Positions 24,321-51,830 of a stretch of 62,698 nucleotides of DNA are shown here, piece by piece. The notes beneath the pieces were generated by a model. The model was not told the origin of the DNA. It saw only the letters and a program-made list of their open reading frames with translations, and did not search any database. Every line of letters begins with the position of its first letter. The stretch's first letter is position 1. The translations under genes and the position numbers were made by a program. Source of the DNA: Candidatus Atribacteria bacterium (GTDB lineage: Bacteria; Atribacterota; Atribacteria; Atribacterales; Thermatribacteraceae); NCBI GenBank assembly GCA_029982245.1, contig JARRBX010000002.1:1-62698 (forward strand), read 5' to 3'.

Positions 24321-24358
24321 AAACCTCTCCTGCCTTTCTTAAAAAATTGTGTCAGAAA

Positions 24359-26557: not shown

Positions 26558-27252
26558 TTTCTCTCCTCCAACCATTGAATAATAGATTGAAAAAGTTTTT
26601 TCCCGTCTTCCGAACCCAAAATTGACTCTGCACAGCGCTCAGGGTGTGGCATCATGCCCAGAACATTCCCTAAAGGCGAAATTATTCCGGCAACATTTCC
26701 CACCGAACCATTAGGATTGGCATCCGGGCTAATTCTACCCTGCGCATCACAGTATCTGAAGGCAATCAAATTGTTCCTTTCCAGTTCCTCAAATACTGAG
26801 GGGGGAACAAAAAAATTGCCCTGCTGATGCGCAATAGGCATTTTAACCACTTCTCCCTGCGCGTATCGCATGGTAAAAGGCGTACCGCTGTTCTCTACTC
26901 TAAGATACACCCAGCGACATATGAAATGACCGCCAATGTTGGGCAAAAGCACTCCAGGCAGTAAACCAGCCTCAACAAGGATTTGAAAGCCGTTGCAAAT
27001 ACCTAAAACCAGCCCTCCCTTCTCAGCGAATTCCCGAATACTGAGCATGATAGGAGCATACGCAGCTATGGCTCCAGCTCGCAAATAATCACCATAACTA
27101 AATCCGCCTGGCAACACAATACAATCACAATCTTTCAAATCTCTTGCTGCATGCCAGAGATATACAGTCTCCACACCCAGCACATCGTGCAAAACATGGA
27201 AACAGTCTCGATCACAATTAGAACCAGGAAAAACAACAACTCCAAAACGCAT
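26530..27252 (-). CDS. purQ: Phosphoribosylformylglycinamidine synthase subunit PurQ (glutaminase)
   Basis: 240 residues. A class I glutamine amidotransferase supplying ammonia to PurL. Visible are FPGSNCDRD near the N-terminus, [19 protein letters not shown], the nucleophile in [10 protein letters not shown], the interface VENSGTPF, and the catalytic MPHPER. The ATG is preceded by GAGGAG. It lies 10 nt after purS and overlaps purL, so the three FGAM synthase subunits are translationally linked. Confidence 0.95.
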
Positions 27253-29200: not shown

Positions 29201-29292
29201 TTTCGCTTTCTTATACCAGGTCTGAAATGAAAAGAAGCCTGGATGGTTTTTCTAAAATAGGAGTGAATACACAGAGAAAAGAGGGTAAAGCA

Positions 29293-30720
29293 TTGAAAAA
29301 GGATTTTTTCCGGAAAGAAAGGGATCTTCTGGGCGAAGAAATAATACCTGAAAATGCTTACTGGGGTGTGCATTCCAAAAGAGCCAGAGATAATTTTCCT
29401 TTCTCAAAAAAGGTTCCCCCATCTCTGGTCAAAGCCTATTTTGCCGTAAAATGGGCCTGCACCAGGGCAAACCTGGAAGTGGGCCTTCTAGAAGCAAAGA
29501 TAGGCAACGCCATATTGAAAGCCTGTGAAGAAGGCATGGAGGGCAAATTTAATGAGGAAGTCATTGTACCCATTTTTCAGGGCGGGGCTGGAACCTCTCT
29601 CAATATGAATATTAACGAAATACTTGCTAACCGAGCCCTGGAAATACTTGGCTATTCTAAAGGCAACTATCAAAAAATCAACCCCTTCGATCATGTAAAC
29701 CTGAGCCAATCTACCAATGACACCTTCATGACTGCAGTTAAGGTAGCCACACTCTGGCAACTCGACGAGCTGGAAAAAGAAATCATTAACCTCCAGGAAA
29801 CGCTGCAGCAAAAAGAGAAAGAGTTTGCTTCTGTGCTAAAGGTAGGAAGGACCGAGCTTCAGGACGCCGTTCCTATAACTTTGGGAATGGAATTTGGTGC
29901 CTTTGCTGAAGCCATCGCCCGCGACCGTTGGAGACTCTGGAAAAGCAGGGAACGAATAAAAGAAGTTAACCTTGGCGGAACTGCAGTAGGAACAGGGTTA
30001 AATGCTCACCCTGAATACATTGCCAGGGCAATCGTCCACTTGAACGAGATAAGTGGTTTGCCGCTGGCCAAAGCCATGAATCTTTTCGAAAATACTCAGA
30101 ATCTGGATGTTTTCTCTGAAGTATCGGGTCTTTTGCGTTCATTAGCCGTGAACCTGCGCAAAATAGCCAACGACCTGCGTCTACTCTCCATGGGACCACG
30201 AGCTGGTATTAGCGAAATCAGCCTGCCTGCCCTGCAAGAGGGTTCCTCGATAATGCCTGGGAAAGTCAATCCCGTCATGTGCGAATACATAGAAGGTATC
30301 GCTATCGACGTAATGGGTAAAGACCAGGCTATAGCTTTTTCCTGCTCCAGTGGACAGTTGGAATTGAATCATCTCGGACCTTTTATTGCCGCTCACATAC
30401 TGGAAATGATAGAAGAACTCAAATTAGGCATTAACGCTTTCACAGAAAAATGCTTGCGGGGAATAAGGGCCAACCAGGAACGCTGCAACGAATTACTGGA
30501 AAAAAGCTTCGCTCTGGCAACCTGTATAGTTCCCTATCTGGGCCATGAACGTACTTCAGAATTAGTCCAGAAGTGCCTCCGGGAAGGCAAAAACTTTAGG
30601 GATTTTCTCATCGAGCAAAAAATCTTTTCTGAGGAAGAATTAAAAAACATCTTGAACCCCCTGGAAATCTCGAGACCCGGTATTCCAGGTTTTGGAAAAG
30701 TAGAGGTGAAAAGGTTGTGA
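29293..30720 (+). CDS. aspA: Aspartate ammonia-lyase
   Basis: 475 residues from TTG 29293. This start has GAGGG 7 nt upstream and gives the family's usual N-terminus before RDLLGEE; an ATG at 29227 would add 22 residues behind a weaker site. The enzyme interconverts aspartate and fumarate plus ammonia. Signatures are NLSQSTNDTFMTA, GRTELQDAVPITLG (aspartase-type rather than the GRTHL of fumarase) and the catalytic loop GSSIMPGKVNPV at about residue 317. The downstream hydF overlaps its stop codon. Fumarase remains a less likely alternative. Confidence 0.85.
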   Translation: MKKDFFRKERDLLGEEIIPENAYWGVHSKRARDNFPFSKKVPPSLVKAYFAVKWACTRANLEVGLLEAKIGNAILKACEEGMEGKFNEEVIVPIFQGGAGTSLNMNINEILANRALEILGYSKGNYQKINPFDHVNLSQSTNDTFMTAVKVATLWQLDELEKEIINLQETLQQKEKEFASVLKVGRTELQDAVPITLGMEFGAFAEAIARDRWRLWKSRERIKEVNLGGTAVGTGLNAHPEYIARAIVHLNEISGLPLAKAMNLFENTQNLDVFSEVSGLLRSLAVNLRKIANDLRLLSMGPRAGISEISLPALQEGSSIMPGKVNPVMCEYIEGIAIDVMGKDQAIAFSCSSGQLELNHLGPFIAAHILEMIEELKLGINAFTEKCLRGIRANQERCNELLEKSFALATCIVPYLGHERTSELVQKCLREGKNFRDFLIEQKIFSEEELKNILNPLEISRPGIPGFGKVEVKRL

Positions 30721-31976
30721 AACAAACAACGCCCCGTGGCCTGAGGCCCCACATAGGCATTTTTGGCAGAAGAAACGCTGGTAAGTCCTCTCTGATTAAC
30801 GCTCTTACGCATCAGGAAGTAGCCATCGTATCAGAAATTCCCGGTACCACTACCGACCCGGTATTTAAGGCTGTTGAATTGCTTCCCTTTGGACCCGTGA
30901 CGCTTATCGACACAGCAGGCCTGGATGACGAAGGTTTTCTGGGAGAATTGCGCAAGAAAAAAACCTTGGAAATACTCAGGCGCTGTGACCTGGCGCTTGT
31001 GGTGTGGGACCACAACTCAGACTTGACCTTTGAAAAGCAACTAATCGAGCTTTTGCGAGAAAACGGTATAACCACCATTGGAGTACAGAATAAAATTGAC
31101 TTGGTCGCAACCACCAACACCCTGGCTGACCACCAGATACCCACTTTCAGGGTAAGCGCCAGAACTGGAGAAGGTATAGAAGAGCTGAAGAAAGCCCTTA
31201 TATCAATACTACAACGCTCCTACCAGGAAAAACCGCTAATTAAAGACCTCGTCACCATTGGGGACACCGTAGTGCTGGTGGTCCCCATAGACCTCGGCGC
31301 ACCTAAGGGCAGGTTAATCCTTCCCCAGGTACAAACCATTCGAGAACTGCTCGATGCAGAAGCAGTAGTGGTAATTACTAAAGAAAGAGAATTGGTTGAA
31401 ACTTTGCAGGGACTGAAAAATCCACCGCGAATGGTGATTACCGATTCTCAGGTGTTTCATAAAGTAGCAGGAGCAGTGCCTCCTGGAATACCTCTTACCA
31501 GTTTTTCAATCCTCTTTGCTCGCTACAAAGGAGACCTCCTGACCTTCGTGGAAGGCGTAGAAGCTATTGAAAAGCTCAAACCTGGAGACAAAGTCTTAAT
31601 TTCGGAAGCTTGTACCCACCATCCCATGCCTGATGATATCGGACGAATAAAAATACCACGCTGGCTCAGGCAAAGACTGGGTTTTGAGGTAGATATCGAT
31701 GTTAATGTGGGAGCCAGCTTCCCAGACAATCTTTCTCAGTACCAGCTGATAATCCACTGTGGAGCCTGCATGTTAAACCCTAAGGAAATGTATTACCGCA
31801 TACTTACTGCAAAAAGAGAGAACGTGCCCATTACCAATTACGGGATAACCATTGCCTATTTACAGGGACTCTTCCCCCGGGTACTTGAAGTTTTTCCTGA
31901 AATGCAAGCCAAGCTGCAAGCCAGAACTTTTTCAGCCAGTCTCTTTCATCGCATCGGTGGGAAATGGTCACTGTAA
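30717..31976 (+). CDS. hydF: FeFe-hydrogenase maturation GTPase HydF
   Basis: 419 residues. HydF is the scaffold on which the 2Fe subcluster of FeFe-hydrogenase is finished and then delivered to the enzyme. The N-terminal GTPase domain has GRRNAGKSS (17-25), GTTTDP and DTAGLDD. The C-terminal cluster site is present as C299-T-H and H-C348-G-A-C351, the CxH plus HCxxC pattern of HydF. The GTG start overlaps the aspA stop (GTGA). It implies an FeFe-hydrogenase and HydE/HydG elsewhere in the genome; none is in this window. Confidence 0.95.
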   Translation: MKQTTPRGLRPHIGIFGRRNAGKSSLINALTHQEVAIVSEIPGTTTDPVFKAVELLPFGPVTLIDTAGLDDEGFLGELRKKKTLEILRRCDLALVVWDHNSDLTFEKQLIELLRENGITTIGVQNKIDLVATTNTLADHQIPTFRVSARTGEGIEELKKALISILQRSYQEKPLIKDLVTIGDTVVLVVPIDLGAPKGRLILPQVQTIRELLDAEAVVVITKERELVETLQGLKNPPRMVITDSQVFHKVAGAVPPGIPLTSFSILFARYKGDLLTFVEGVEAIEKLKPGDKVLISEACTHHPMPDDIGRIKIPRWLRQRLGFEVDIDVNVGASFPDNLSQYQLIIHCGACMLNPKEMYYRILTAKRENVPITNYGITIAYLQGLFPRVLEVFPEMQAKLQARTFSASLFHRIGGKWSL

Positions 31977-32798: not shown

Positions 32799-33659
32799 TC
32801 AATACACCACTCCAAACTTCTCAAAGTAAAAACGAGAAACATCTTCAATCTCTTTCTTTTCTCTAATATTATAAACGTAACGGATTACTTTTTTCTTCCA
32901 AAATTCATCCTTGCTCAGTTTACCTTCACGCCACAGCAAAAAATCAAGAGCTCTAACCTGAAAACTCAAGGCATATTCCCCATCTAAGACGAGCTGAACC
33001 AGAAACCAGGAAGCTCCTGGAAAAAGGCGACGCAAACTCTCAAAACCAAAACCAATTTGATTCCATACCGCTTGGGAAAGGTCTTTACTCACCATTTGCA
33101 TCTGGACGAAAGCCTGGTTATCCTCTGAAAGCCCGATATTCAAAACCTTGTAACCAAATTCCTCGAGAAGAGCAATGGTCCGCTGAATCGCTTCATCAAT
33201 GTCCTTGCTACCCAACACATTGCTCTCAATCAGCACAAAGCCATCTTCAAAAACCAAACGGTCATTGACATAAAACCTGACTTTCCACTCCCCGGGAACA
33301 ATTTTCGAAGCGTTCGATAAAAGATCCAGTATGCCCTGTGCACCTACGTACTTTTTAGTTTCCTCAATCACTAAGATACTTTCAAAAACCGCTCCCTCCG
33401 GAGAAATGAACTCCCACCGAAGCGTTTCGCCTTCCAAAACCTCCTCCAGAAAGACCCAGCAGATTATTTTTCCATCCTCCGTGGAAAATTGTTCAATACG
33501 TTCCAAGGGAAGACCGTCCTGGTCAAGCCCTCTACAGAGCGCATAATCCAAAACTCTTGAAACAGAGGGTAACTCAGCAGCTCTGACCAGAGGAAGAAAC
33601 ATACCAAAAACAACCATTAATGTTACATAAAACCAAATCTTGCGCATTAAGCGATACAC
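32799..33659 (-). CDS. Uncharacterised secreted protein
   Basis: 286 residues. The N-terminus MYRLMRKIWFYVTLMVVFGM followed by FLPLVRAAELP is a clear signal peptide with a likely cut after VRA or RAA. The mature part has a beta-rich first half (residues about 40-150, including GEWKVRFYVNDRLVFEDGF, reminiscent of an immunoglobulin-like domain) and a mixed second half. The GTG start lies 6 nt after AAAAAGGGG. I do not recognise a named family. It probably forms a two-gene unit with the downstream cytosolic protein. Confidence 0.65.
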   Translation of the reverse strand: MYRLMRKIWFYVTLMVVFGMFLPLVRAAELPSVSRVLDYALCRGLDQDGLPLERIEQFSTEDGKIICWVFLEEVLEGETLRWEFISPEGAVFESILVIEETKKYVGAQGILDLLSNASKIVPGEWKVRFYVNDRLVFEDGFVLIESNVLGSKDIDEAIQRTIALLEEFGYKVLNIGLSEDNQAFVQMQMVSKDLSQAVWNQIGFGFESLRRLFPGASWFLVQLVLDGEYALSFQVRALDFLLWREGKLSKDEFWKKKVIRYVYNIREKKEIEDVSRFYFEKFGVVY

Positions 33660-33684
33660 CGAAAGCCCCTTTTTCGTTTTCTCT

Positions 33685-33714
33685 ATAATAACACAGTACT
33701 TCTTTAAGTGTTAA
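33685..33714 (-). promoter_or_regulatory. Candidate promoter for the secreted-protein gene
   Basis: On the minus strand TTAACA (33714-33709), 18 nt, TATTAT (33690-33685), both 5 of 6 to consensus. It begins inside the last codons of the methyltransferase gene. Predicted start is near 33678, about 20 nt before the GTG start. Confidence 0.4.
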
Positions 33715-34507
33715 GTCTGCCTTCCCTAAAAGCGGAAAGGTACTTCATACAAAATTCGTCAATTCCTAAAAGTGCCTCTGCCGCATAGATGGAAGCCATC
33801 AGTTCTCTGTCCAGAGGGTCAATAATTGCTGCGTCCAGGCCAAATCCGAGACAGAGCACCACAAAAGTCCGGTTCAAAAGCCTTCTGTTTGGCAAACCAA
33901 AAGAAACGTTTGACAAACCACAAACTGTCTTCACCTTGGGAAACTTATCTTTAATACTTCTTAAGGTCTCCAGAAAAACTTTCCCTTGAGTAGAATCCGT
34001 ACCCACGGGAATAACCAGAGGATCAATAAAAAGCCGTTCTTCAGGGATGTCATAGCGGTGCACAGCTTCCAGCAATCTATCCACCAGTTTCATGCGCTCC
34101 TGACCAGTCTGGGGTATTCCGGCTTCGCCCATAGCCAGACCAACTATGGAAGCGTTCCACTCTTTAGCCAGAGGAAGCAACGCTTTTATTTTTGCTTCCT
34201 CAGCCGTAAAGGAATTAATGATTAACTCTTTCTTTTTGTAAACCTTCAAAGCTTTTTCCAGCGCCTTTTCATTAGCAGAATCAAAACAAAGAGGTACGCT
34301 CACCTCATCCTGAATAATTTCCACCAACCAAGGAAGGTTTTCCATCTCCGAGTTAGCGTCAGTGCCTGCATTCACATCGATGAAATGCGCTCCTGCCTGC
34401 TCCTGTTTTCTGGCTTCTTCAATAAAAAACTGAGCGTCTCTTCTTTCCAGAGCCTCTCGTATAGGTTTACGTGTGGCATTAATCCGTTCTCCAATAATAA
34501 TCAACAC
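33704..34507 (-). CDS. Methyltetrahydrofolate:corrinoid methyltransferase (AcsE/MtgA-like)
   Basis: 267 residues, a single pterin-binding TIM barrel. The N-terminus IIIGERINATRKPIREALE, the FIDVNAG strand, LCFDSANEKALE, LIINSFTAEEAK, FIDPLVIPVGTDS and CGLSNVSFGLPNRRLLNRTF follow the acetogen methyltransferase AcsE closely. These enzymes pass the methyl group of CH3-THF to or from a corrinoid protein. It ends the C1/electron-transfer cluster and overlaps folC (GTG start within the folC end). Whether its partner is a CoFeSP or the small corrinoid protein at 50251-50892 cannot be told. Confidence 0.85.
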   Translation of the reverse strand: MLIIIGERINATRKPIREALERRDAQFFIEEARKQEQAGAHFIDVNAGTDANSEMENLPWLVEIIQDEVSVPLCFDSANEKALEKALKVYKKKELIINSFTAEEAKIKALLPLAKEWNASIVGLAMGEAGIPQTGQERMKLVDRLLEAVHRYDIPEERLFIDPLVIPVGTDSTQGKVFLETLRSIKDKFPKVKTVCGLSNVSFGLPNRRLLNRTFVVLCLGFGLDAAIIDPLDRELMASIYAAEALLGIDEFCMKYLSAFREGRLNT

Positions 34508-35835
34508 AGCTCGACCTCCTCGCTAATATTAAAAATACGATTAATTTCTCCCTCAAAAAGACGGGCCAGATAAAAGGAACCAGCGACCACCAGAGGCAAT
34601 CCGTTCTTTACCGCTAAATCTTTTGCAAAAGTGTAGGCCATCGCCGGGTCTTTGACAACCAGGGTGGGTGCAACTCTCTCAAACAGGGAAACCAGATTGC
34701 CAGGCATTATGGCCCGAGGGGTGTAAGGTTGGGTAACGACTATCGAATCTGCAAAGCCACCCAGAACTTCCGCAATAGAGTTGATATCCTTTCCTTTCAC
34801 AAAACCCAAAAGGAAAGTGCTTTTTTCAATACCCAGATAATTACGGAGAGCGTTACGCAAAGCCAGAAAGGAGTCGCGATTATGGGCCACATCGAAGATT
34901 ACCAAAGGGCGATCCGAAATTACTTGAATCCTTCCCGGCCAGCTTACCCTTGTAAGCGCGGTTTCTATCGCGTGTTCTCGAAAGTCCAAACCCCATTCCC
35001 GCAATATAAGTAAAGCCATCAAAAAATTAGCAACCTGATGGTCGCCAAGAAGGGGGAATAATGATGCGCTCCTGCCCCAGCTTTTCACCTCCCACTGCAG
35101 TTGAGACCCCAAAGAATCTCTGGACAGAATTTCAAAGAAACACTCTTCTTCAAACCGGGTTACTGGAGCACTTTTCAGGCGGGCAACTTCCAAAATCACT
35201 TTCTCAGCTTCCGGACATTGAGAAGCCAGAACGAGAGGAATCCCAGAACGAATGATGCCAGCCTTTTCTTTGGCGATCTCCCCTACAGAATTCCCCAAAA
35301 CATCCATGTGGTCCATTCCGATAGGAGTTATCGCTGTTAAATCCGGACAGGAAACATTGGTCGCATCAAGGCGCCCACCCAAACCAACCTCAAAAACAGC
35401 CAAATCAACCTTTCTTTCGAGAAAATAAAGAAAAGCAAGAGCCACCGAAACCTCAAAATAAGTAGGCTTGCCCAAAGGAGAACTGCGACCCATTTCCTCA
35501 ACAACGGGCCGAATACGCCGTACCAGCAATCCCAGCTCATCTCCACCGATGAAAGTATCGTTAATCCGTATCCGCTCTCGATAAGTTACAAGATGGGGCT
35601 TGGAATAAAGGCCGCAACTGAAACCGTAAGCCATCAAAAACCTATGCAAAAGGTAAGAAGTGGAACCCTTGCCTTTGGTGCCAGCAATCAAGATAGTGGG
35701 TACTCTGAACTGGGGATTACCCAAGCGGTCCATCAACTCCTGCATACGCTCCAGTTTTAAATCCGAATACGAAAAACCAATCTTCTCGTAGTTAATCAAA
35801 CCGTAAAGGTAGCGCAAGGCTTCTTGATACAACAT
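34501..35835 (-). CDS. folC: Folylpolyglutamate synthase / dihydrofolate synthase
   Basis: 444 residues. FolC adds glutamates to folates, the form used by C1 enzymes. Present are GTKGKGSTSYLLHRFL (P-loop, about residues 51-66), the EVGLGGRLDATN motif, ITPIGMDHMDVLG, and DVAHNRDSF of the C-terminal domain. The ATG follows GAGG by 7 nt and lies 9 nt after the FAD/NAD(P) oxidoreductase gene. Its place inside the methyl-branch cluster fits a role in making the polyglutamylated THF those enzymes use. Confidence 0.93.
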   Translation of the reverse strand: MLYQEALRYLYGLINYEKIGFSYSDLKLERMQELMDRLGNPQFRVPTILIAGTKGKGSTSYLLHRFLMAYGFSCGLYSKPHLVTYRERIRINDTFIGGDELGLLVRRIRPVVEEMGRSSPLGKPTYFEVSVALAFLYFLERKVDLAVFEVGLGGRLDATNVSCPDLTAITPIGMDHMDVLGNSVGEIAKEKAGIIRSGIPLVLASQCPEAEKVILEVARLKSAPVTRFEEECFFEILSRDSLGSQLQWEVKSWGRSASLFPLLGDHQVANFLMALLILREWGLDFREHAIETALTRVSWPGRIQVISDRPLVIFDVAHNRDSFLALRNALRNYLGIEKSTFLLGFVKGKDINSIAEVLGGFADSIVVTQPYTPRAIMPGNLVSLFERVAPTLVVKDPAMAYTFAKDLAVKNGLPLVVAGSFYLARLFEGEINRIFNISEEVELC

Positions 35836-35844
35836 GACTCGACC

Positions 35845-36684
35845 TCAATATTCCTCCGGAAGGTTACGCAAAAAGTCATATCTGAAAACCGGTCCTTCTT
35901 TACATACATAATAAGGACCAATGTTACAGCGACCACATTTCCCCAGACCACATTTCATCTTCATCTCCAAAGTAGTTATGATATCTTGAGGACGACATCC
36001 CATCTCAAGCAACGTCTTAATGGTAAATTTAATCATTATCGGAGGACCACAAACAATAGCAGTAGGTGGTCTATTCCTATCCAGCGGGACAGATGCCTGC
36101 AATATCTGAGGCACCAAACCTACTCTTCCTCCCCAGGATTCGTCTCCTTTATCCACCGTGACGATGAGTTCCACATCCTCTCTCTCCGACCACCTCTTAA
36201 GCTCCCACTTAAAAACCAGGTCTTGAGGGGTTCTGGCTCCATAGAGAATGGTAATCACGCCAAAACGAGAGCGATATTCAGGGTCAAGAACATAGTTTAT
36301 AAGTGACCTCAAAGGGGCCAAACCAATGCCGCCTCCAATAAAAAGCAGATTTTTCCCTTCCAACTCATTCACGGGGAAACCATTCCCATAAGGACCCCGG
36401 ATACCTATCTGACTCCCCGGAACCTGCTGGTGAAGAGCCTCGGTAACCAACCCGATTCTCTTAATACTAAACTCGATGACCCCCTTTTGAGTGGGGGAAG
36501 AAGTTATCGAAAAGGGTGCCTCACCTTTGCCAGGAAGAAAAACCTCTGCAAACTGACCCGGGAGGTATTCAAAGTGAAAATCATCTGGAATCTCCACTCG
36601 AAAGGTTTTAATATCAGGAGTTTCTGGAATAACCTCCCGTATAACACAGAGCCGAGGAAGATAAATATTTTGAAGTTTACTCAC
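35845..36684 (-). CDS. FAD/NAD(P)-binding oxidoreductase subunit (FlxA/AsrB/PyrK-like)
   Basis: 279 residues from GTG 36684, which overlaps the previous stop by 8 nt (GTGAGTAA); another GTG four codons earlier is crowded against GAGGTGG. The ferredoxin-NADP reductase fold shows the flavin motif APFSITSSP and the nucleotide motif GGGIGLAPLRSLI. A C-terminal cysteine set (CGLGKCGRCNIGPYYVC) probably binds a 2Fe-2S cluster. Such subunits move electrons between NAD(P)H and iron-sulfur partners in sulfhydrogenase, sulfite reductase AsrABC and FlxABCD-Hdr complexes. Here it is the likely NAD(P)H entry or exit point of the Hdr-like system. Confidence 0.8.
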   Translation of the reverse strand: MSKLQNIYLPRLCVIREVIPETPDIKTFRVEIPDDFHFEYLPGQFAEVFLPGKGEAPFSITSSPTQKGVIEFSIKRIGLVTEALHQQVPGSQIGIRGPYGNGFPVNELEGKNLLFIGGGIGLAPLRSLINYVLDPEYRSRFGVITILYGARTPQDLVFKWELKRWSEREDVELIVTVDKGDESWGGRVGLVPQILQASVPLDRNRPPTAIVCGPPIMIKFTIKTLLEMGCRPQDIITTLEMKMKCGLGKCGRCNIGPYYVCKEGPVFRYDFLRNLPEEY

Positions 36685-37675
36685 GCTTTTTGTCACCCAC
36701 CTCTTGCAACATTCCCCTAACCACTTCTCTGATGTCCCAGTTAACCGGACAAGCGGTCACACAAACCCCACAACCAACACACCCAAAACTACCCTCACGC
36801 ATTGGAAAATAGGAAAACTTATGGAGAACCCTCTGGCGCACTCTCTCGGTATAACCGGGACGTGGATTATGACCCGAAGCATGCAAGGTAAATTTAGGAA
36901 ACATACAGCTGTCCCAGCTACAAAGCTGATAACCCTTCAGCGCCCCATCCATCACAAGATCAAAACAATAACAGGTAGGGCATAGAAAAGTACAAGCTCC
37001 GCAGTTAAAGCACTTCCGAGCCAGTTTTTCCCATTTTTCGCTGTAAAAATTATCGTAAAGTCTCTCTGGAAAGTCCTCATTTATAACAAAAGGCTCTAAA
37101 AAAGATTCACTTCTTTTTCTTAACTTCTCAACCTCTTTCGATAACCCAGCACTTATCCCTTCATAAGTGAGTGGGAAAACATCAGCAGGATCCTCCAAAT
37201 ATAACCCTTCCTCCAGAGGCACCAGAAAGGGAGAATCATCAGTATGCCAAAAGGGTCCACCACCCACCCAGTTACAGAAACAGGTTACCTCGGGAGCAAG
37301 ACAGGCCACAATCACCAAACGAAGAGAACGACGATGTGAAAAATAGAGACCATCTGGAGGTTCTTTTCCAATAAAAATTCTGTCCAGAACATCCAAAACC
37401 GCTTTTGCCTCGCAAGGCAAGGCAAAAACCAAAGAGGGTAGCGATTCCTCCTCAACCGGCAAATCCTCCACAGACCATCCTTTTCTATTCCATAAGAAGC
37501 GACAAACTTTGCGCCATTGAGGATAAAAGGCTTCCTTCACAGTACGTATTTCTCTGTCCAGGCTTTTAAAGAGATCCGGATATTTGTTTTTCAGCCGCTG
37601 GGTAACCCATACCCTGTCCCTTTCATTCACAATCCATTCTCGAAACTTTTCCTGGTTCCAGTAACCCTTTCTCAT
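36677..37675 (-). CDS. 4Fe-4S dicluster protein (FlxB/AsrA/sulfhydrogenase beta-like)
   Basis: 332 residues. Two cysteine motifs are in the C-terminal third: CFNCGACTFLCPTCYCFD and CVGCGVCVTACPV. The CPTCYCFD form is typical of the sulfhydrogenase beta/AsrA group. The N-terminal half carries LVFALPCEAKAVLDVLDRIF, also found in that group. It has SD-like AAGGATA before its ATG and overlaps the FAD subunit gene. It is probably the electron relay between the FAD subunit and the MvhD/HdrA proteins. Confidence 0.8.
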   Translation of the reverse strand: MRKGYWNQEKFREWIVNERDRVWVTQRLKNKYPDLFKSLDREIRTVKEAFYPQWRKVCRFLWNRKGWSVEDLPVEEESLPSLVFALPCEAKAVLDVLDRIFIGKEPPDGLYFSHRRSLRLVIVACLAPEVTCFCNWVGGGPFWHTDDSPFLVPLEEGLYLEDPADVFPLTYEGISAGLSKEVEKLRKRSESFLEPFVINEDFPERLYDNFYSEKWEKLARKCFNCGACTFLCPTCYCFDLVMDGALKGYQLCSWDSCMFPKFTLHASGHNPRPGYTERVRQRVLHKFSYFPMREGSFGCVGCGVCVTACPVNWDIREVVRGMLQEVGDKKRE

Positions 37676-37688
37676 TATCCTTAACCCC

Positions 37689-38633
37689 TCACTTTATAAA
37701 TTCGTTAGGGTCATTTTCTTTGTAAGTAAGCAAGGGTGCTTTTTCTTCAAGGCTTAACCCTGCTTCAAAACCAAAATACTCCTTAACAATGCTCTCCACC
37801 TTAATAGTGAGAAGCGCAATGGGGATTCCTACCGGACAGGCTCGCTCGCAAGCTCCACACTCTACGCAACGACCAGCAAGGTGCATGGCACGGCCCATGT
37901 GGAAAACAAAATTGTCAGAGAAAGTTGGACAGGGAGTTGTCCAGCGAGGGTGGGTGCTTTCCACAAAACATTCGTTGCAGTAGCAAAGAGGGCAGGCTTC
38001 ACGACAAGCATAGCAGCGAATACAGGAGCTAAGCTCTCTGTAAAGCTCGTCAAAACGCTTTTCAGGACTTTTTGAATCCATTTCTTGCACATAATCCAAA
38101 CCAAATTTCTCCCAATTACTCTTGTCAAGAGGCTCGCCGACCAAGAAATCATAAAGAGGAGGGTTGGGATATCGGCAACGAAGACAGGTGTTTTCCATAA
38201 AATCCTGATAGTGATATTCCTTTCCCTCGATAACAAAACCCTCTTCCTTCCAAAAAACTGCATCATGGGAAAAGTTTCCCAGAGAATCCCACATCTTTCT
38301 CCAGTCCAAAATACCTCTGCATGGGACGCCAATGATTTTCAAGCGCTCACGCTCAAATTGCTCTTCCTGAAGAAGAACTATTAGCGACCGTGCATCACAG
38401 CCCTTAGCAACGATGCCCAATCTTTTATCACTTTTTTTATAACGCTGAAGATACCTGGAAAGGTTGACCGAACACAACGGATTAAAAATCATTTTTTCAA
38501 CATCCTGCAGCTCTTCAGCAAACAAAGGCGAAGTTCGGAAAGGAAGAGAACCCCACTGGTAACCGATAATCATATCCACTTCTTTCTCCGCAAGCAACCT
38601 GCGGGCAATTTCCCTTACCTCTTCAGAAAACAT
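37689..38633 (-). CDS. FrhB-like 4Fe-4S protein (FlxC-like)
   Basis: 314 residues. The N-terminal part has GIVAKGCDARSLIVLLQEEQ, a motif of the FrhB/FdhB-like iron-sulfur flavoproteins and their relatives. The C-terminal part has two cluster motifs, CIRCYACREACPLCYCNECF and CVECGACERACPVGIPI. The ATG follows AAAGGAG. It lies 3 nt after mvhD and 13 nt before the next iron-sulfur gene. The set mvhD, this gene, AsrA-like and AsrB-like parallels the four proteins of FlxABCD. Confidence 0.75.
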   Translation of the reverse strand: MFSEEVREIARRLLAEKEVDMIIGYQWGSLPFRTSPLFAEELQDVEKMIFNPLCSVNLSRYLQRYKKSDKRLGIVAKGCDARSLIVLLQEEQFERERLKIIGVPCRGILDWRKMWDSLGNFSHDAVFWKEEGFVIEGKEYHYQDFMENTCLRCRYPNPPLYDFLVGEPLDKSNWEKFGLDYVQEMDSKSPEKRFDELYRELSSCIRCYACREACPLCYCNECFVESTHPRWTTPCPTFSDNFVFHMGRAMHLAGRCVECGACERACPVGIPIALLTIKVESIVKEYFGFEAGLSLEEKAPLLTYKENDPNEFIK

Positions 38634-38636
38634 TGC

Positions 38637-39059
38637 TCAAAACTCCTTTACCAATCGGGATGCAGGACCAACCTTCTTAACGCTTTCCACCACTTCCTCT
38701 ACCACCTTAGAGAATTTCTGACCTTCAGAGGCTGAAACCCAGGAAAATTGCACTCTTTCCTCCTCGATGCCAAACCATTTGAGCATCTCCTTAAGAACCA
38801 GAAATTTCCTGCGTGCAAAATAATTGCCCCCAATATAGTGACAATCTCCTGGATGACAACCAGAAACCAGCACCCCATCTGCTCCTTCTCGTAAAGCCTT
38901 AAGAATATAAAGTGGATTAACTGCCCCCGAACAGGGAACTCTGATAACTCTAATATTGGGAGGATACTGAAAACGACTCACTCCCGCTAAATCAGCACCT
39001 GCATAGCTACACCAGTGGCAGAGAAAGGCCACTATTTTGGGTTCCCATCCTTCACTCAT
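38637..39059 (-). CDS. mvhD: MvhD/FlxD-type hydrogenase-associated iron-sulfur subunit
   Basis: 140 residues from ATG 39059, overlapping the giant HdrA stop by 8 nt (ATGAGTGA). MvhD carries a 2Fe-2S cluster and docks an electron donor onto HdrA. All family cysteines are present: FLCHWCSYAGADLAG (C14, C17), VPCSG (C43) and VSGCHPGDCHY (C68, C73). A longer reading that starts 41 codons upstream runs inside the HdrA gene in another frame. Directly next to HdrA, it is the expected bridge to the Flx-like module. Confidence 0.9.
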   Translation of the reverse strand: MSEGWEPKIVAFLCHWCSYAGADLAGVSRFQYPPNIRVIRVPCSGAVNPLYILKALREGADGVLVSGCHPGDCHYIGGNYFARRKFLVLKEMLKWFGIEEERVQFSWVSASEGQKFSKVVEEVVESVKKVGPASRLVKEF

Positions 39060-42000
39060 AAAGATATTCCACCTCCGCCATGACCTGCTCAGGAGCAAAG
39101 CCCTGAACTTTAATCGCACTGCTTTTGCAGGAAGCACTGCACAAACCACAACCTTTACAAAGAGCCAGGTTAACTTCGGCAACTTTTTTCTCAGGATTTA
39201 CTTTTACAGCACCAAACTGGCACAGCTTCTCACAGTCACCACAACCAGTACATTTCCGCTCCTCTACAAAAGCCACCTCAGCTTCAGAAGTAATTTGTTC
39301 TTTGCTCAACACAGTCATCATGCGAGAAACGGCTGCTTTAGCTTGCAGAACACATTCATGAGCAAACTTCGGGCTATGAGCCAGGCCACAAACAAAGATA
39401 CCATCAGTAGCGAAATCAACCGGTCGCAATTTCACATGGGCTTCCAGGAAAAACCCATCTTGGTTTAAAGGCACTTTCAGTTTTTTGGCAAGTTCCTGGT
39501 TTCCAACCTGGGGAACAACACCATTGGAGAGCACCACCAGGTCCGGAGCGAAAAGTACCTCCTCACCCAAAAGCGGAAGAAAAGCCTTAACAACAATTTT
39601 TTCTCCATCTACCAAAACCTGAGGAGGCTTATCGTCCTCAAAACGAGCAAAAACAATGCCCATTTCACGGGCTCTGCGGTAAAGCTCTTCCAGAAAACCA
39701 AAAGTCCGGATGTCCCGGTAAAGAATGAAAATCTCTATCTCGGGGTTCATTTCTTTCAATCGCAAAGCATTGCGAATAGCCCTCGAACAGCAGGTTCGGC
39801 TACACCAGGGGTGATCTGCGTTTCTGGAACCCACGCACTGGATCATCACTACCCTTGCAGGAGAGAAAGAACCCTTTTCAAGACTCTGCTCAAGTTCGGA
39901 TTGAAGTATAACCCGCGGGCTCAAGCCATAGCCAAATTCACCTTCTTGAGGAAGATACTCAAGACCCCCTGTGGCAACTATCACGGCACCATGCTTGATC
40001 CTTCTCTCGGTATCCTTGACCATAACCAGAGATTCAAAATTACCCACAAAACCATTCACTTCTACAACCCGGGTGTTTAGCAGCACTTCTATCTCTGGAT
40101 CTTCCAAAACCTTATTTTTGAGCTCATGAATCCTCTCAGTAATTTCTTCACCAAAGGGCGTCAACCAGCGTTCAAACCGGGCAACATAACCACCCAGTTC
40201 CGGCTCTTTTTCCACCAGAAAAACTTTTATTCCCTGCTTACGAGCCTCTAAAGCCGCAGTCATCCCGCTCAAGCCACCACCTATAATCAAAACCGCTTTT
40301 TCAACCGGAAGCAGAGCTGGTTGTAGGGGCCGTTTCAGAGAAACTTTGGCCACTGCCATAGAAACCAGTTCCTTGGCTTTCTCAGTAGCCATTTGAGGTG
40401 TCCTCTGATGCACCCAGGAACACTGGTCCCGAATGTTAGCCATTTCAAAAAGATAGGGGTTAAGACCTGCTTCTCGTAAGGTTTCCCTGAAAAGAGATTC
40501 GTGTGTTCTCGGAGAGCAGGAAGCTACCACTACTCGATTGATACCCAGTTCCATAATTTTTTGCTTCATTCGTTCCTGGGTATCCTGCGAGCATGTGTAT
40601 AGGTTCTCTTCAGCATAAACCACTCCGGGTAAATCTTTAGCCCAGTCAACCACTTCTTTTACGTTCACTACACCTCCAATATTAATGCCACAATGGCAAA
40701 CGAAAACTCCTATTCTCAGCGGCTCAATCTCTACGTTGCGCTCCGGGGGATATTGCTTGTAAGTAATTTCCGAAAAACGTGCTTCACTTAACAAAGAAGA
40801 AACATTACAACTTGCCGCACTTGCCTCAACCACAGTTTCAGGTATATCCTTAGGGCCTCCTGCTGTACCACAAACGAAAATGCCATCTCGCGCAGTTAGC
40901 GTTTTATCAAGTGGGTCAGTATATGGAAACCCGTTCTCTTGCAACGCTATCCCTGCTCTACGAAACATTTCCTGATTTAAAGGTGAGGCCTCAAAACCCA
41001 CCGAAAGAATTACCAAGTTAAAGATTTCCTCCTGAAGATGACCACTTTCGTCAACAAAGTAAACCCTCAAATCCCCGTTGTCGAGCTCCTCTACCTTGCC
41101 CACTTTGCTCCTTACAAAACGGATGCCTTCCTCTTTGGCACGTTCAAAGTAACGTTCAAAATCTTTTCCCGGCGAACGCATATCAATCATAAAAATGGTT
41201 ACATCCAGCTGTGAACCCTCAGCATCAGGTCTCTTTTCGGAGCCATGGACAACGGTGTTTACTCCACACCCACACACTGCTGCTTCTTCTCTTGCTTCAA
41301 TAAGCAGGTGTTCTCTGGCCACCAAAGCTTCCTTAATGGCATACATACAGCAAACAGCAGAGCAATAAGGTTTACCACGCTCCACGTCTCTCGAACCCAC
41401 GCACTGCACAAAAGCAATCTTGCGAGGTACCTTACCGTCTGAAGGACGAACCACCTTGCCCTGAGTGGGACCAGAAGCACTCAATATCCGCTCAAAGTCT
41501 AAACTGGTGATGACGTTAGCGAATTTTCGATATCCAAGCTCTCTATAGCGCTTTACAGGATCAAAAACCGAAGCACCGCTTGCGAAAACAACTGCACCAA
41601 CCGGAATCTCTAAAAGCTCTTCAGAGTCTTCATGTATAATTGCTTCCCGCTGGCAGGCAGCGACACATTGCATACACTCTGAACAACCACCGCAGGAAAG
41701 ACAGCGTCGAGCTTCTTCTTTGGCCTCTTCTTCGGTGTAACCCTTGACCACTTCATAAAATCCCCGGATTCTCTCCTGGGGACTCAGCTTTCTCATCCTG
41801 ACTCGAGGCTTCTTCGGCTCCCGCCAGGGTATGGTAATGGGAGCTTTGCGTTTTTCAAAACTTTGAAGTCCCCTTCCCTGAAGATAAGCATCAATGGCCT
41901 GAGCAGCTCTTTTTCCATGAGCAATGGCTTCAACCAGCGTAGCTGGACCAAGCACTGCATCACCTCCGGCAAAAACACCTTCAACGGAGGTTTGCATAGT

Positions 42001-43536
42001 TTCATCAACTTTGATAGTCCCCCAATTGGTGCGCTCTAAGCTCTTCTCGGGTATATCTACTCGCTGGCCAATGGCTACCAGGAAAAGGTCTGCTGTCACC
42101 TCATATACTACATCGGGCATGATTTCTGGTTTTCTTCTTCCTGAAGCGTCGGGAGCACACAAACGAACTGCATTGAACTCCAGCACCACTTTCCCGTTTC
42201 GTTTCACAAATCTCTTGGGTGCTGCGCAGAAGTAAAACTCTATTCCCTCTTCTATCGCTTCCTCTATTTCCTCCGCCCTCGCTGGCATTTCTTCTCGGGA
42301 ACGTCGGTAATAAATGGAAACTTTCTTAGCACCCTTACGCAAAGCAGAACGTGCGCAATCGATAGCCACGTTACCCCCACCAATAACCACGACCTCCTCA
42401 ACCAAAGGCACTTTTTGAGTGCTGTTGACTCTAACCAGATAATCAAGACCATCCATGACCTCAGGATAGTCTTCTCCATCGATACCCAGCTTCATAGTTT
42501 GCCAGGCTCCGCAGGCAATGTACAGGGCAGCATAATCCTCTTTGAAAAGGTCTTCAATCGTAAAATCTCTACCCCAGGCCTTGCCAAAAATAAACTGGAC
42601 TCCCAAGTCTTTTAAGATTTCAATTTCATATTGCACAACTTCGCGTGGTAAGCGATAGGGAGGTATACCGTAATGCATCATCCCCCCAGGCTGCTCTTTA
42701 GCTTCGTAAACACAGACTTGATAGCCCTCTCTGGCCAAAAAGTAAGCACAGCTGAGCCCGCTGGGACCAGCTCCAACAATCGCTACCTTTTTACCTTTGT
42801 TCTCTTTTTGGTTCGAAACAGGCTTTAAACCATTTTTAACCTCATAATCTGCTAAAAATCTCTTTAAGTAAGGAATGCCAATTGCTTCATCAAGCACGCT
42901 ACGCTGGCAGTCCTCCATACAGGGGTGATGGCAAGCTCGTCCGCAAATTCCAGGAAAAGGATTATCCATTCGCACTGTTTGCAAGGCATCTTCAAACCTT
43001 CCTTCTCGAATCAGTGCTACATAACCCTGGGCTTTCTGTTCCAGAGGACAAGCTGCCTGACAGTTGGGCAAACCTCGTTTTTCAATTGCAAAAGCACTGG
43101 GAAAAGCCTGAGGGAAAAGACGGTAAATGGCTTTTTTCTCACTCAAACCACCCTCAAATTCGTTCGGCAAATTCACCGGACAAACTCTTGCACAATCACC
43201 ACATCCAGTGCACTTTAAAGGGTCAATATAGCGAGGCTTGCGCCTGACCTTGACCCGAAAATCACCGGGTACCCCTTCAACGGACTCAAGGTTGGCACAG
43301 GAAATAACCTCTATGTTCAGGTGCCTACCGCAGTCAACGAGCTTTGGGGAGAGAATGCACATTGCACAGTCATTGGTTGGAAAGGTTTTATCTAACCTTG
43401 CCATAAGGCCTCCAATAGCGGTTGAATCCTCGACCAGATAAACCTTAAAGCCTGCATTAGCCAGGTCCAGTGCACTCTGAATGCCTGCTATGCCTCCTCC
43501 AACCACCATCACACTGCCTCGGCTTTTACCGTGCAT
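39052..43536 (-). CDS. Giant HdrA-GltD-HdrA fusion flavoprotein
   Basis: 1494 residues from ATG 43536 (GAGAGGG upstream; overlaps the hdrC-like stop by 11 nt). Order: HdrA-type FAD fold (GGGIAGIQ, 13-20; C57, C60, C69) with a ferredoxin motif (C109, C112, C115, C119); then a GltD/NfnB-like unit at about 155-560 with N-terminal cysteines (C159, C163, C198, C202, C206, C210), FAD loop GAGPSG (255-260) and NAD(P) loop GGGNVAIDCAR (386-396); six cysteines at 612-628; the rest of the first HdrA (to about 925); and a second HdrA unit (CHCGINIGG at 947-955, GGGLSG at 1086-1091, two 4Fe-4S sites C1429-C1439 and C1460-C1470). It could hold three flavins and several clusters. Probably the electron-splitting core of the neighbouring complex. 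Confidence 0.9.
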   Translation of the reverse strand: MHGKSRGSVMVVGGGIAGIQSALDLANAGFKVYLVEDSTAIGGLMARLDKTFPTNDCAMCILSPKLVDCGRHLNIEVISCANLESVEGVPGDFRVKVRRKPRYIDPLKCTGCGDCARVCPVNLPNEFEGGLSEKKAIYRLFPQAFPSAFAIEKRGLPNCQAACPLEQKAQGYVALIREGRFEDALQTVRMDNPFPGICGRACHHPCMEDCQRSVLDEAIGIPYLKRFLADYEVKNGLKPVSNQKENKGKKVAIVGAGPSGLSCAYFLAREGYQVCVYEAKEQPGGMMHYGIPPYRLPREVVQYEIEILKDLGVQFIFGKAWGRDFTIEDLFKEDYAALYIACGAWQTMKLGIDGEDYPEVMDGLDYLVRVNSTQKVPLVEEVVVIGGGNVAIDCARSALRKGAKKVSIYYRRSREEMPARAEEIEEAIEEGIEFYFCAAPKRFVKRNGKVVLEFNAVRLCAPDASGRRKPEIMPDVVYEVTADLFLVAIGQRVDIPEKSLERTNWGTIKVDETMQTSVEGVFAGGDAVLGPATLVEAIAHGKRAAQAIDAYLQGRGLQSFEKRKAPITIPWREPKKPRVRMRKLSPQERIRGFYEVVKGYTEEEAKEEARRCLSCGGCSECMQCVAACQREAIIHEDSEELLEIPVGAVVFASGASVFDPVKRYRELGYRKFANVITSLDFERILSASGPTQGKVVRPSDGKVPRKIAFVQCVGSRDVERGKPYCSAVCCMYAIKEALVAREHLLIEAREEAAVCGCGVNTVVHGSEKRPDAEGSQLDVTIFMIDMRSPGKDFERYFERAKEEGIRFVRSKVGKVEELDNGDLRVYFVDESGHLQEEIFNLVILSVGFEASPLNQEMFRRAGIALQENGFPYTDPLDKTLTARDGIFVCGTAGGPKDIPETVVEASAASCNVSSLLSEARFSEITYKQYPPERNVEIEPLRIGVFVCHCGINIGGVVNVKEVVDWAKDLPGVVYAEENLYTCSQDTQERMKQKIMELGINRVVVASCSPRTHESLFRETLREAGLNPYLFEMANIRDQCSWVHQRTPQMATEKAKELVSMAVAKVSLKRPLQPALLPVEKAVLIIGGGLSGMTAALEARKQGIKVFLVEKEPELGGYVARFERWLTPFGEEITERIHELKNKVLEDPEIEVLLNTRVVEVNGFVGNFESLVMVKDTERRIKHGAVIVATGGLEYLPQEGEFGYGLSPRVILQSELEQSLEKGSFSPARVVMIQCVGSRNADHPWCSRTCCSRAIRNALRLKEMNPEIEIFILYRDIRTFGFLEELYRRAREMGIVFARFEDDKPPQVLVDGEKIVVKAFLPLLGEEVLFAPDLVVLSNGVVPQVGNQELAKKLKVPLNQDGFFLEAHVKLRPVDFATDGIFVCGLAHSPKFAHECVLQAKAAVSRMMTVLSKEQITSEAEVAFVEERKCTGCGDCEKLCQFGAVKVNPEKKVAEVNLALCKGCGLCSASCKSSAIKVQGFAPEQVMAEVEYLYE

Positions 43537-44020
43537 TGCTACCCTCTCCTTCAACCCAACCCAGCTTGGCAATTTCTTCTCGATAAAACCTCTCGAACTC
43601 TTCCAGAGAATTGATGCCTTTGTTCCACAGATATTTGATAAGCGCTCGTCGCAGCTCTTGAGTCCTGCGGTCGACCTCGTCAACCACTTTTTTCCATTCT
43701 GCAGAAACGGTGCCCTCCTCTACAGCAAGCTCCCGCAGAACCTTCAAAAGATTGGTAAATTCAACATCCTGCGGGCAGTGGGCAGTGCAACGATAACAGC
43801 CTACACACAGCCATATGTATTCCGACTGCAAAAGCTCTTCCTGTTCACCAAGCAAAATCTGATGAATGATGCGGCGCGGATTGAAATCCCCCTCAACCTC
43901 GCTCACCGGACAACCCGCTGTACAAACTCCACAGGCAAAACAGGAAAGCAAACCTTCGCCCCCAGGGCGAGAAGCAACCCGATACTTGAACTGATAATCA
44001 AAAACTTTTGCCTCACTCAT
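43526..44020 (-). CDS. HdrC-like dicluster ferredoxin
   Basis: 164 residues. Two 4Fe-4S motifs: C27-x2-C30-x2-C33-x3-C37 and C72-x2-C75-x2-C78-x3-C82, in the LLSCFACGVCTAGCPV and YIWLCVGCYRCTAHCPQDVEF contexts typical of HdrC. The C-terminal 70 residues are charged and helical. It overlaps metF by 8 nt (ATGAGTGA) and the HdrA fusion by 11 nt. In methanogens and in the Moorella MetFV complex HdrC pairs with HdrB; no HdrB gene is found here, so its electron partner is open, with MetV-MetF the nearest candidate. Confidence 0.85.
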   Translation of the reverse strand: MSEAKVFDYQFKYRVASRPGGEGLLSCFACGVCTAGCPVSEVEGDFNPRRIIHQILLGEQEELLQSEYIWLCVGCYRCTAHCPQDVEFTNLLKVLRELAVEEGTVSAEWKKVVDEVDRRTQELRRALIKYLWNKGINSLEEFERFYREEIAKLGWVEGEGSNAR

Positions 44021-45969: not shown

Positions 45970-45974
45970 ATCAA

Positions 45975-47390: not shown

Positions 47391-47396
47391 TTCCCA

Positions 47397-48386: not shown

Positions 48387-48434
48387 GTTCTCCTACCACC
48401 CATCCCCAAATAGTGAAATTCGGTTGCTTCACAA

Positions 48435-48463
48435 AATATAACATCGCTAAAATAAACCGACAA
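48435..48463 (-). promoter_or_regulatory. Candidate promoter for the HdrA-MetVF cluster
   Basis: On the minus strand TTGTCG (48463-48458), 17 nt, TATATT (48440-48435). It overlaps the fhs stop codon. Predicted start is near 48428, giving a leader of about 42 nt before the TTG start at 48386. The match is 4 and 5 of 6 to consensus. It would allow separate control of the electron-transfer cluster from fhs. Confidence 0.4.
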
Positions 48464-50141: not shown

Positions 50142-50213
50142 CTGTTACCCTCCCTTACATAAATTATTAAAGATAGCTTTTAATAAATCACTTAATTATT
50201 ACCTGACGAAAGG

Positions 50214-50239: not shown

Positions 50240-50250
50240 TTGTTGGCAAT

Positions 50251-51821: not shown

Positions 51822-51830
51822 ATAAAGACT

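Follow-up and report, generated by a model that had tools for sequence, protein, structure and literature searches.

Methionine synthases assembled from separate polypeptides have been demonstrated genetically in two bacteria, as a three-part enzyme in Phaeobacter (PMC5764234) and as a split enzyme in Ruegeria (PMC12478193), according to the accessible excerpts of both papers. In Phaeobacter inhibens, an aerobically grown alphaproteobacterium, the PF02574, PF00809 and PF02607+PF02310 proteins are separate and are served by a RamA/RACo-like activator; a DUF1638 protein is also required (PMC5764234). The corrinoid protein of Ruegeria pomeroyi MtgC/MtgD/MtgE is common to methionine synthesis and MttB-type demethylation, a dual use shown by mutants, and MetF is linked (PMC12478193).

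We compared with these systems a 62,698-nucleotide stretch (the window) from a Candidatus Atribacteria bacterium. As its genome comprises 109 contigs and is 79% complete, claims of absence are limited accordingly and lean on relatives; 61 genomes were searched, of which 49 are Atribacterota and 24, the source genome included, belong to the same order. The parts that were observed, together with their domain composition, motifs, synteny and phylogeny, suggest that a methyl-THF:corrinoid protein methyltransferase (MeTr), a small corrinoid protein and a separate homocysteine methyltransferase probably form a three-part cobalamin-dependent methionine synthase that ends the methyl branch. The separate domains and the RACo-type activator recall P. 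inhibens, and the linked MetF recalls R. pomeroyi. A feature seen here that sets the design apart from P. inhibens is its linkage to an Hdr-MetVF gene run; there the case was made by genetics, here from gene content.

MeTr lies in a run of 15 minus-strand genes that also holds FolC, Fhs, MetVF and the small corrinoid protein. Profile matches bear out an earlier note on this DNA, which had listed Fhs, MetVF, a MeTr-family methyltransferase and a small corrinoid protein. The MeTr gene (33704-34507; PRK07535 335.6 bits, cut-off 259) is adjoined by that for FolC, a folylpolyglutamate/dihydrofolate synthase (34501-35835; TIGR01499 333.8 bits, cut-off 162.65), which the note left unnamed and which makes up the remainder of the interval it discussed (33704-35835). 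The following genes encode a FAD/NAD(P)-binding, HydG/AsrB-like electron-transfer subunit (35845-36696; PRK08345 231 and AsrB model 216.7, both below cut-off), an AsrA/HydB-like 4Fe-4S subunit (36677-37675; TIGR02910 104.9 bits, below cut-off; Fer4_22 98.3), a 4Fe-4S protein matching Fer4 families with two CxxCxxCxxxCP motifs (37689-38633), a FlpD/MvhD-like subunit (38637-39182; PF02662 185.4 bits), a giant flavoprotein of HdrA type into which a GltD-like NAD(P)-binding part is inserted (39052-43683; HdrA2 model 942.5, cut-off 1100; PRK12771 557.5, cut-off 516) and an HdrC-like 4Fe-4S protein (43526-44020; Fer4_8 46.8 bits). These are succeeded by the methylene-THF reductase MetF (44013-44996; PF02219 139.3 bits), MetV, matched through the C-terminal MTHFR partner domain (44936-45586; PF12225 126.7 bits), a second FlpD-like protein (45583-46089; PF02662 40.1 bits), a 4Fe-4S ferredoxin-domain protein (45975-47390; Fer4 50.3 bits), an HdrA-like flavoprotein half (47397-48386; Pyr_redox_2; HdrA2 model 140.3 bits), the formate-THF ligase Fhs (48447-50141; PF01268 886.5 bits) and the MtgC-like corrinoid protein (50251-50892; PF02310 106.5, PF02607 85.2). 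A formate/nitrite-family transporter is the divergent neighbor (51046-51801, plus strand; PF01226 221.3 bits), and SHMT, a predicted source of methylene-THF, is encoded on the minus strand at 52101-53357 (PF00464 589 bits). FolD is encoded elsewhere in the genome. The window had no Rfam match at gathering threshold. Promoter and terminator scans of positions 33000-52500 gave 26 hits versus 19.8 in shuffles (sd 4.1) and 23 versus 22.3 (sd 4.8), respectively, and were not used because the counts are close to the shuffles.

MeTr is a separate protein of 267 aa with a Pterin_bind domain (PF00809, 83.8 bits), and we predict it to be the pterin-binding module of a split MetH. With acetogen AcsE (2e7f, which we take to be the MeTr of Moorella) it shares the family, conserved pterin-site residues and the presumed methyl-THF:corrinoid chemistry; D76, N98, D162 and N200 align with D75, N96, D160 and N199 of 2e7f, presumably the catalytic residues. 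It differs from AcsE in its separate clade, and neither an acs operon nor CoFeSP was found in the source genome (79% complete). For the phylogeny, a cut at 85% identity left 67 of 120 MeTr-like rows, to which the window sequence and three PDB rows were added; two fused MetH rows and L213, which were long or otherwise odd, were removed before the tree was built. The AcsE clade comprises six rows with a support of 100/100, MeTr not among them, and the score against the curated AcsE model NF040758 was 163.5 bits (cut-off 370); together, score and tree position rule out an AcsE identity. The best solved match is 4o0q (218.9 bits), which we take to be an O-demethylase methyltransferase of D. hafniense, but it falls in a different starred clade, and the 27-row group common to both is weakly supported (85/84). 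The row nearest 4o0q is the second MeTr of another genome (G018, L099), near URO-D-type and corrinoid genes. The database listing of 4o0q names it a dihydropteroate synthase. The label 'AcsE/MtgA-like' in the earlier note holds only at the family level: MeTr belongs to neither the AcsE nor the 4o0q starred clade.

The corrinoid protein carries both B12 domains, PF02607 and PF02310, on a separate polypeptide, with a DLHDIG motif at residue 100. It passes TIGR02370 (217.5 versus 215.3) and fails the NCBIfam MtgC models (MtgC_2, 250.3 versus 370; the other, 207 versus 310). The closest solved structure is 1y80 (235.1 bits), presumably the 25-kDa corrinoid protein of Moorella, which we assume to be linked to methanol metabolism; the window, by contrast, shows no recognisable methanol methyltransferase. 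The database listing of 1y80 reads predicted cobalamin binding protein. A corrinoid-protein tree made by a quick method (SH-aLRT only) grouped the window protein with its own order (99) but separated methionine-linked from catabolic types poorly, and therefore no conclusion rests on it. We predict that this protein is the B12 module of a split MetH and that it may serve as a hub for MttB.

The source genome encodes a stand-alone PF02574 homocysteine methyltransferase of 297 aa (contig C60, L133, 5934-6827) with GxNC and GGCCG motifs, the cysteines of which presumably form the zinc site. Its closest solved match is MetH (1q7m, 203.2 bits), compared with 63.1 bits for BHMT, which disfavours a BHMT-type identity, and 38.9 for Hcy S-methyltransferase. 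Its gene adjoins a sugar-kinase-like gene, apart from the MeTr/corrinoid pair, as might be expected if the enzyme used betaine or S-methylmethionine directly and the pair served another acceptor. We consider this very unlikely given the MetH-like scores, and given that in four genomes of the other class relatives of the enzyme are encoded next to RACo and MetH-activation-like genes (homocysteine methyltransferase-RACo-(activation-like) runs, L135-L138).

A RACo-type corrinoid activator is present as a 402-aa fragment at the edge of contig C67, and RACo was found in 21 of the 24 order genomes. On contig C31, HcyBio forms one run with a NIL-Fer4-like gene and with another conserved gene that matches no family. 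The MetH-activation-like family, whose match to 1j6r (a methionine synthase according to its deposition) has an E of 4e-14, was not detected in the source genome and was detected weakly in 10/24 order genomes. No fused MetH was found in the source genome (79% complete), in which the single MeTr and the single PF02574 match are both unfused. MeTr matches across the 24 order genomes lie in frames of at most 309 aa, and thus no fused MetH was seen there; within the phylum, one occurs in G025 only (781 aa), a genome that lacks any further MeTr match and any close corrinoid match. PF01717 (MetE/core-MetE) was found in 0/49 Atribacterota genomes, and on this count we rejected a core-MetE that draws its methyl from the corrinoid protein.

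Methionine, which the earlier note had listed among possible fates, is the best-supported destination of the methyl group, as all split-synthase parts are in the source genome (the activator as a fragment). Formate (via Fhs, then FolD) or serine (via SHMT) would give rise to methylene-THF, which a MetVF-Hdr-FlpD complex would reduce to methyl-THF. MeTr would move the methyl onto the MtgC-like corrinoid protein, from which the homocysteine methyltransferase would take it to form methionine. The ATP-dependent RACo-type activator would rescue oxidised cobalt, and the HcyBio/NIL-ferredoxin-like run would supply homocysteine. We infer from the gene content the function of this set, the joint action of its three proteins, the assembly of the redox proteins into a single complex, and the direction in which the methyl branch runs.

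Within the order, MeTr was found in 23/24 genomes, the corrinoid protein in 21/24, a PF02574 protein in 21/24 and all three in 19/24; when only full-length stand-alone PF02574 proteins are counted, the last two figures are 18/24 and 17/24. Genome contigs were also searched for related loci, taking the best 80 of 462 confirmed loci. In the Atribacterota loci examined outside the order, split-synthase pieces sit among methionine genes, including runs of HcyBio-NIL/Fer4-x-corrinoid-MeTr-MetF-(MetH-activation-like) in the other class. In an Aminicenantes genome (L171), a homocysteine methyltransferase-like gene immediately precedes that of MeTr, a long branch in the tree. Against a split synthase, the homocysteine methyltransferase gene lies outside the MeTr/corrinoid cluster in the source genome and order. 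Two genomes (G026, 100% complete; G031, 94%) have PF02574 without MeTr or a close corrinoid protein, and three (G017, 75%; G018, 92%; G021, 92%) have MeTr without PF02574, G018 also without a close corrinoid protein. Seven order genomes of family f2 have a PF02574 match in a 493-642-aa frame, which in G012 is the only PF02574 match; the one frame scanned, from G001, is a homocysteine methyltransferase/MTHFR fusion, which could provide an alternative methionine route.

The absence of acetyl-CoA synthase and CoFeSP genes from the window, reported previously, stands: tblastn with the AcsB, AcsC, AcsD and CODH sequences of a relative gave no match in it (E<=1e-3). In the whole source genome (79% complete), PF03598 (AcsB/CdhC) had 0 matches and the sole PF03599 (CoFeSP) match was MeTr itself, at a weak 25 bits; we rejected a hidden acs operon on these searches. 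PF03598 occurs in 2/61 genomes, that is 2/49 Atribacterota, both of one genus (G009 and G015), and full-length PF03599 is found in the same two of 49, with short C-terminal matches in G003, G045 and also G009. In G009, AcsB-AcsC are divergent from the corrinoid gene, where the window has the transporter, and another contig carries an operon of RACo, a CooC-like P-loop protein, AcsD, AcsE and CODH; G015 has corresponding matches. These genes, and the 21% by which the source genome is incomplete, favour a flow of the methyl to acetyl-CoA through a CODH/ACS not yet seen. We regard this as extremely improbable given the rarity of both families, the position of MeTr outside the AcsE clade and the presence of AcsE besides the cluster MeTr in G009 and G015. 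Acetyl-CoA, also proposed in the earlier note, is unsupported as a fate. An acs operon with its own acsE, which was expected to weaken the link to the small corrinoid protein, was seen only in G009 and G015, and there the cluster MeTr is retained.

Alternatively, the branch might run mainly oxidatively. An MttB-family enzyme would demethylate a quaternary amine or similar compound, the methyl would pass through the corrinoid protein and MeTr to THF, and MetVF-Hdr, FolD and Fhs would yield formate and ATP, with exit via the divergent transporter. MttB (PF06253) was found in 15/24 order genomes (18/61 searched), all 15 of which have one corrinoid protein at least 79% identical to that of the window, other matches being at most 28%. 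As this protein is the only close candidate partner of MttB there, oxidation of methylated substrates is plausible in these relatives. The big redox set, the transporter adjoining the corrinoid gene and the MttB-corrinoid-MeTr neighbours in Desulfosporosinus (L201) and Dehalococcoidia (L202) are consistent with such a flow, as is a JS1 single-cell study in which mtgB lies close to electron-transfer flavoprotein genes and to one labelled metH (PMC10826368, in the excerpt available). However, we judge a mainly oxidative branch rather unlikely. MttB was not found in the source genome (79% complete), and three genomes without it (G002, 92%; G004, 97%; G014, 90%) nevertheless keep MeTr, the corrinoid protein and the homocysteine methyltransferase. 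Across the 15 genomes MttB is never on the contig of the cluster, save in the one-contig G007, where they are >0.4 Mb apart. Oxidation from a methylated substrate, as had been suggested, is therefore possible in MttB-bearing relatives, but no MttB was found in the source genome; the dual use shown in R. pomeroyi would here apply to relatives. The Hdr/FlpD/HydG-like set seems to exceed the needs of methionine supply, and some members thus likely use it for catabolism as well.

More tentatively, and with some doubt, the phylum as a whole may use the MtgC-like protein as a methyl-B12 hub, on a THF methyl branch that lacks CODH/ACS. The hub would be charged by MeTr, with methyl groups coming from the Hdr-linked MetVF complex, and interchangeable terminal enzymes would either take methyl groups from it or deliver them: in most members the homocysteine methyltransferase, in the greater part of the order MttB enzymes, and in one genus the adjoining AcsB-AcsC.

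Such a branch has been counted in genome surveys as half of a Wood-Ljungdahl pathway. In the parts examined, Jiao et al. (2024; PMC11227167) described fhs, folD and metF in nearly all Atribacterota genomes and CODH/ACS in two only; the words 'methionine' and 'methyltransferase' have 0 occurrences in its main text, and the purpose of methyl-THF is unstated in those parts. Expression of an Atribacteria H4F:B12 methyltransferase was interpreted as directly indicating that acetogenesis operates (mBio 2020; PMC7542362, in the passages available). Since Atribacterota MeTrs, except those of the acs operon in one genus, are not AcsE in our tree, MeTr expression alone is no indication of acetogenesis, and the split synthase matters because such methyltransferases have been read in print as its sign. 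The titles, abstract openings and passages of the open PMC literature that we searched did not report that any Atribacterota have a split methionine synthase. If correct, the split-synthase reading predicts how this uncultured lineage makes its methionine.

The interval 33704-35835 holds two minus-strand genes, encoding a methyl-THF:corrinoid methyltransferase (MeTr, 33704-34507) and FolC (34501-35835). They close a 15-gene minus-strand run at its downstream end; the run starts with a small MtgC-like corrinoid protein at 50892, intergenic gaps are at most 109 bases and many longest-frame ORFs overlap. In transcription order, the corrinoid protein is followed by Fhs, an HdrA-like half, a ferredoxin-domain protein, a FlpD-like protein, MetV and MetF, then by an HdrC-like protein, a 1543-aa HdrA with a GltD-like insert, FlpD and two more 4Fe-4S proteins, and finally by a HydG/AsrB-like FAD-NAD(P) subunit, FolC and MeTr. 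Given this content and order, the earlier note was right to list Fhs, MetVF, a methyltransferase and a small corrinoid protein. Its statement that acetyl-CoA synthase and CoFeSP genes are absent also holds, as queries with AcsB, AcsC, AcsD and CODH gave no match within the window. A formate/nitrite-family transporter gene is divergent from the corrinoid gene, with SHMT past it. Within the 1543-aa HdrA (39052-43683), the GltD-like NAD(P)-binding part is inserted between HdrA-like stretches. Beyond the run, with other genes in between, the minus strand carries purF, purL and purQ (22929-27252), which fits a use of 10-formyl-THF for making purines. On the plus strand, what we take to be an aspartase-like gene overlaps a presumably HydF-like GTPase gene (29227-31976), which would put the maturation of an [FeFe]-hydrogenase close to the C1 genes.

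The relatives searched comprised 24 genomes of the order (window genome included), which we place in class Atribacteria (OP9), and 25 others of the phylum, by inference mostly JS1/Phoenicimicrobiia. The closest MeTrs in named records are those of Candidatus Atribacteria and Caldatribacterium (among the matches listed, best 80 of 462). In a 68-row MeTr tree, one AcsE clade (100/100) holds six rows (two PDB entries, two Omnitrophota acs loci and two from genus g8), and the MeTrs of the order form a separate clade (100/100). The AcsE identity that the earlier note had considered for the window MeTr is thus rejected. Each of the two Omnitrophota loci (L199, L229) carries AcsE plus a second MeTr. 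PF03598 was found in 2 of the 61 genomes searched, both of g8, and full-length CoFeSP (PF03599) in the same two of the 49 phylum genomes. These appear to be the two Nitricultor genomes with CODH/ACS described in the available text of Jiao et al. 2024 (PMC11227167). In genome G009, AcsB and AcsC are divergent and adjoin the corrinoid gene (L084 11701-16588; L085 1028-4600 is listed for the same arrangement), and a separate contig carries an operon of RACo, CooC-like, AcsD, AcsE and CODH genes (L084 and L100 are both G009 loci). In this sole genus with ACS matches, AcsB-AcsC occupy the site of the formate-family transporter in G000, G001 and G007. An acs operon with its own AcsE, taken beforehand as weakening the link to the small corrinoid protein, was seen only in G009 and G015, and both retain the cluster-type MeTr beside AcsE; the window has no such match.

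The best solved-structure match of the window MeTr is 4o0q (218.9 bits), which we take to be the D. hafniense O-demethylase methyltransferase; AcsE entries score lower (2yci, 199.6; 2e7f, 186.2). In the tree, 4o0q groups with the second MeTr of G018 (L099) and with MeTrs adjoining URO-D-type genes. The window MeTr clade is separate; a weakly supported 27-row group (85/84) contains both. L099 (8266-13636) encodes RACo, a URO-D-family protein, a second corrinoid-protein type and the MeTr grouping with 4o0q, and is probably an O-demethylase-like cluster.

We regard the system as real and coherent, best read as an Hdr-linked THF methyl branch ending in a split methionine synthase. Four functions are combined in MetH: the binding of homocysteine, of folate and of B12, and reactivation. 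In the window genome (1.44 Mb, 109 contigs, 79% complete), the first is represented by a 297-aa protein encoded on contig C60 that stands alone and has the cysteines of the GxNC and GGCCG motifs; its nearest solved structure is MetH 1q7m (presumably from Thermotoga; 203.2 bits), with BHMT at most 63.1 and Hcy S-methyltransferase 38.9. The folate and B12 functions would be supplied by the window MeTr and corrinoid protein, and reactivation is represented by a fragment of RACo, an ATP-dependent corrinoid activator type, at the edge of contig C67. On contig C31 (L233), the homocysteine-synthesis gene HcyBio shares its run with a NIL-ferredoxin-like gene and one further conserved gene, at a guess COG2122; PF01837 is presumably DUF39. 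FolD lies on contig C20. None of the 49 genomes gave a match to MetE/core-MetE (PF01717), and the 24 of the order showed no fused MetH. Split synthases have been demonstrated in alphaproteobacteria, and the putative one here would be a variant of them; we found no report of one from Atribacterota in the open PMC literature searched.

Across the 24 order genomes, MeTr occurs in 23, the corrinoid protein (at least 79% identity) in 21, any homocysteine methyltransferase (PF02574) match in 21 and all three in 19; RACo occurs in 21 and HcyBio in 22. The PF02574 match is a piece in G003 and G020 and lies only in a 620-aa frame in G012; counting full-length stand-alone proteins alone gives 18/24, and 17/24 for all three parts. 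Eleven order genomes reach 90% completeness with no more than 5% contamination; of these, MeTr is present in 11, the corrinoid protein in 10, PF02574 in 10, all three in 10 and RACo in 11. Within the 24, PF02574 is absent from G017, G018 and G021, MeTr from G020, and a close corrinoid protein from G018, G020 and G023, gaps that count against a split synthase. Of the 25 phylum genomes outside the order, 19 encode a stand-alone MeTr, the sole MeTr of G025 lies inside a fused MetH, and five have none (G026, G028, G031, G033, G048). PF02574 is present in G026 and G031 despite the absent MeTr, which a split synthase leaves unaccounted for. Genome G001, of family f2, encodes a 636-aa homocysteine methyltransferase/MTHFR fusion (L142 3191-5101; PRK08645 725 bits, cut-off 453), possibly a second methionine route; PF02574 matches lie in 493-637 aa frames in six further f2 genomes.

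Within the order, the MeTr and corrinoid genes share a contig in 8 of the 21 genomes with both, always 15.3-15.9 kb apart, and lie on separate contigs in the other 13. The run between them is kept in G001, G007 and largely in G009, where our ORF picking did not yield MetV or the second FlpD-like gene. Elsewhere in the phylum, the pair lies within 3 kb on one contig in 17 of 18 genomes with both, and within about 100 bases in 12 of those 17. Its neighbours at the examined loci are HcyBio, NIL-Fer4, MetF and a MetH-activation-like gene (L091 scanned; L093, L094, L098 by similarity), as also at L175, L181 and L184, or varied sets of HcyBio, ETF, a MetF-like gene and RACo (L090 scanned; L095, L097). 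Homocysteine methyltransferase lies together with RACo and the MetH-activation-like gene at L135-L138, the latter precedes the fused MetH of G025 (L148), and at Aminicenantes L171 the gene immediately upstream of MeTr is homocysteine methyltransferase-like. The MetH-activation-like family has a match (E 4e-14) in 1j6r, a structure deposited as methionine synthase; only a weaker match occurs in 10/24 order genomes (E 1e-16 to 3e-9), and none in the window genome (79% complete). At six Firestonebacteria loci (L195, L214, L216, L220, L227, L232), the gene immediately after MeTr clusters with Atribacterota FolC, and a conserved gene set lies upstream of the two. In G049, which lies outside the phylum, an MttB gene shares a row with a MetH-activation-like gene and a fragment resembling homocysteine methyltransferase (L014 1462-4404).

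MttB (PF06253) is encoded in 15/24 order genomes, with one in-frame TGA in the G006 gene (L020). In a scan of five MttB proteins, four of them from the order, the model for trimethylamine methyltransferase was the only one matched at E<=1e-8, with scores under its cut-off. All 15 genomes have one corrinoid protein of at least 79% identity, every other match being at most 28%. If MttB requires a small corrinoid partner of the MtgC-like family, that partner must be this protein, because there is no second close candidate; it would then serve both methionine synthesis and MttB, as in Ruegeria. There, according to the available text of PMC12478193, mutants demonstrated the dual use, whereas in the order gene content suggests it. 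Genomes G002, G004 and G014 lack MttB yet retain MeTr, the corrinoid protein and homocysteine methyltransferase, pointing to methionine synthesis as the likely common denominator.

The embedding of the MetVF genes among Hdr, FlpD and HydG/AsrB-like genes suggests that methylene-THF reduction is coupled to the pools of NAD(P)H and ferredoxin; the MetVF-Hdr flow could also run in reverse. A split methionine synthase would speak against the inference of acetogenic operation drawn from MeTr expression in the available text of PMC7542362.
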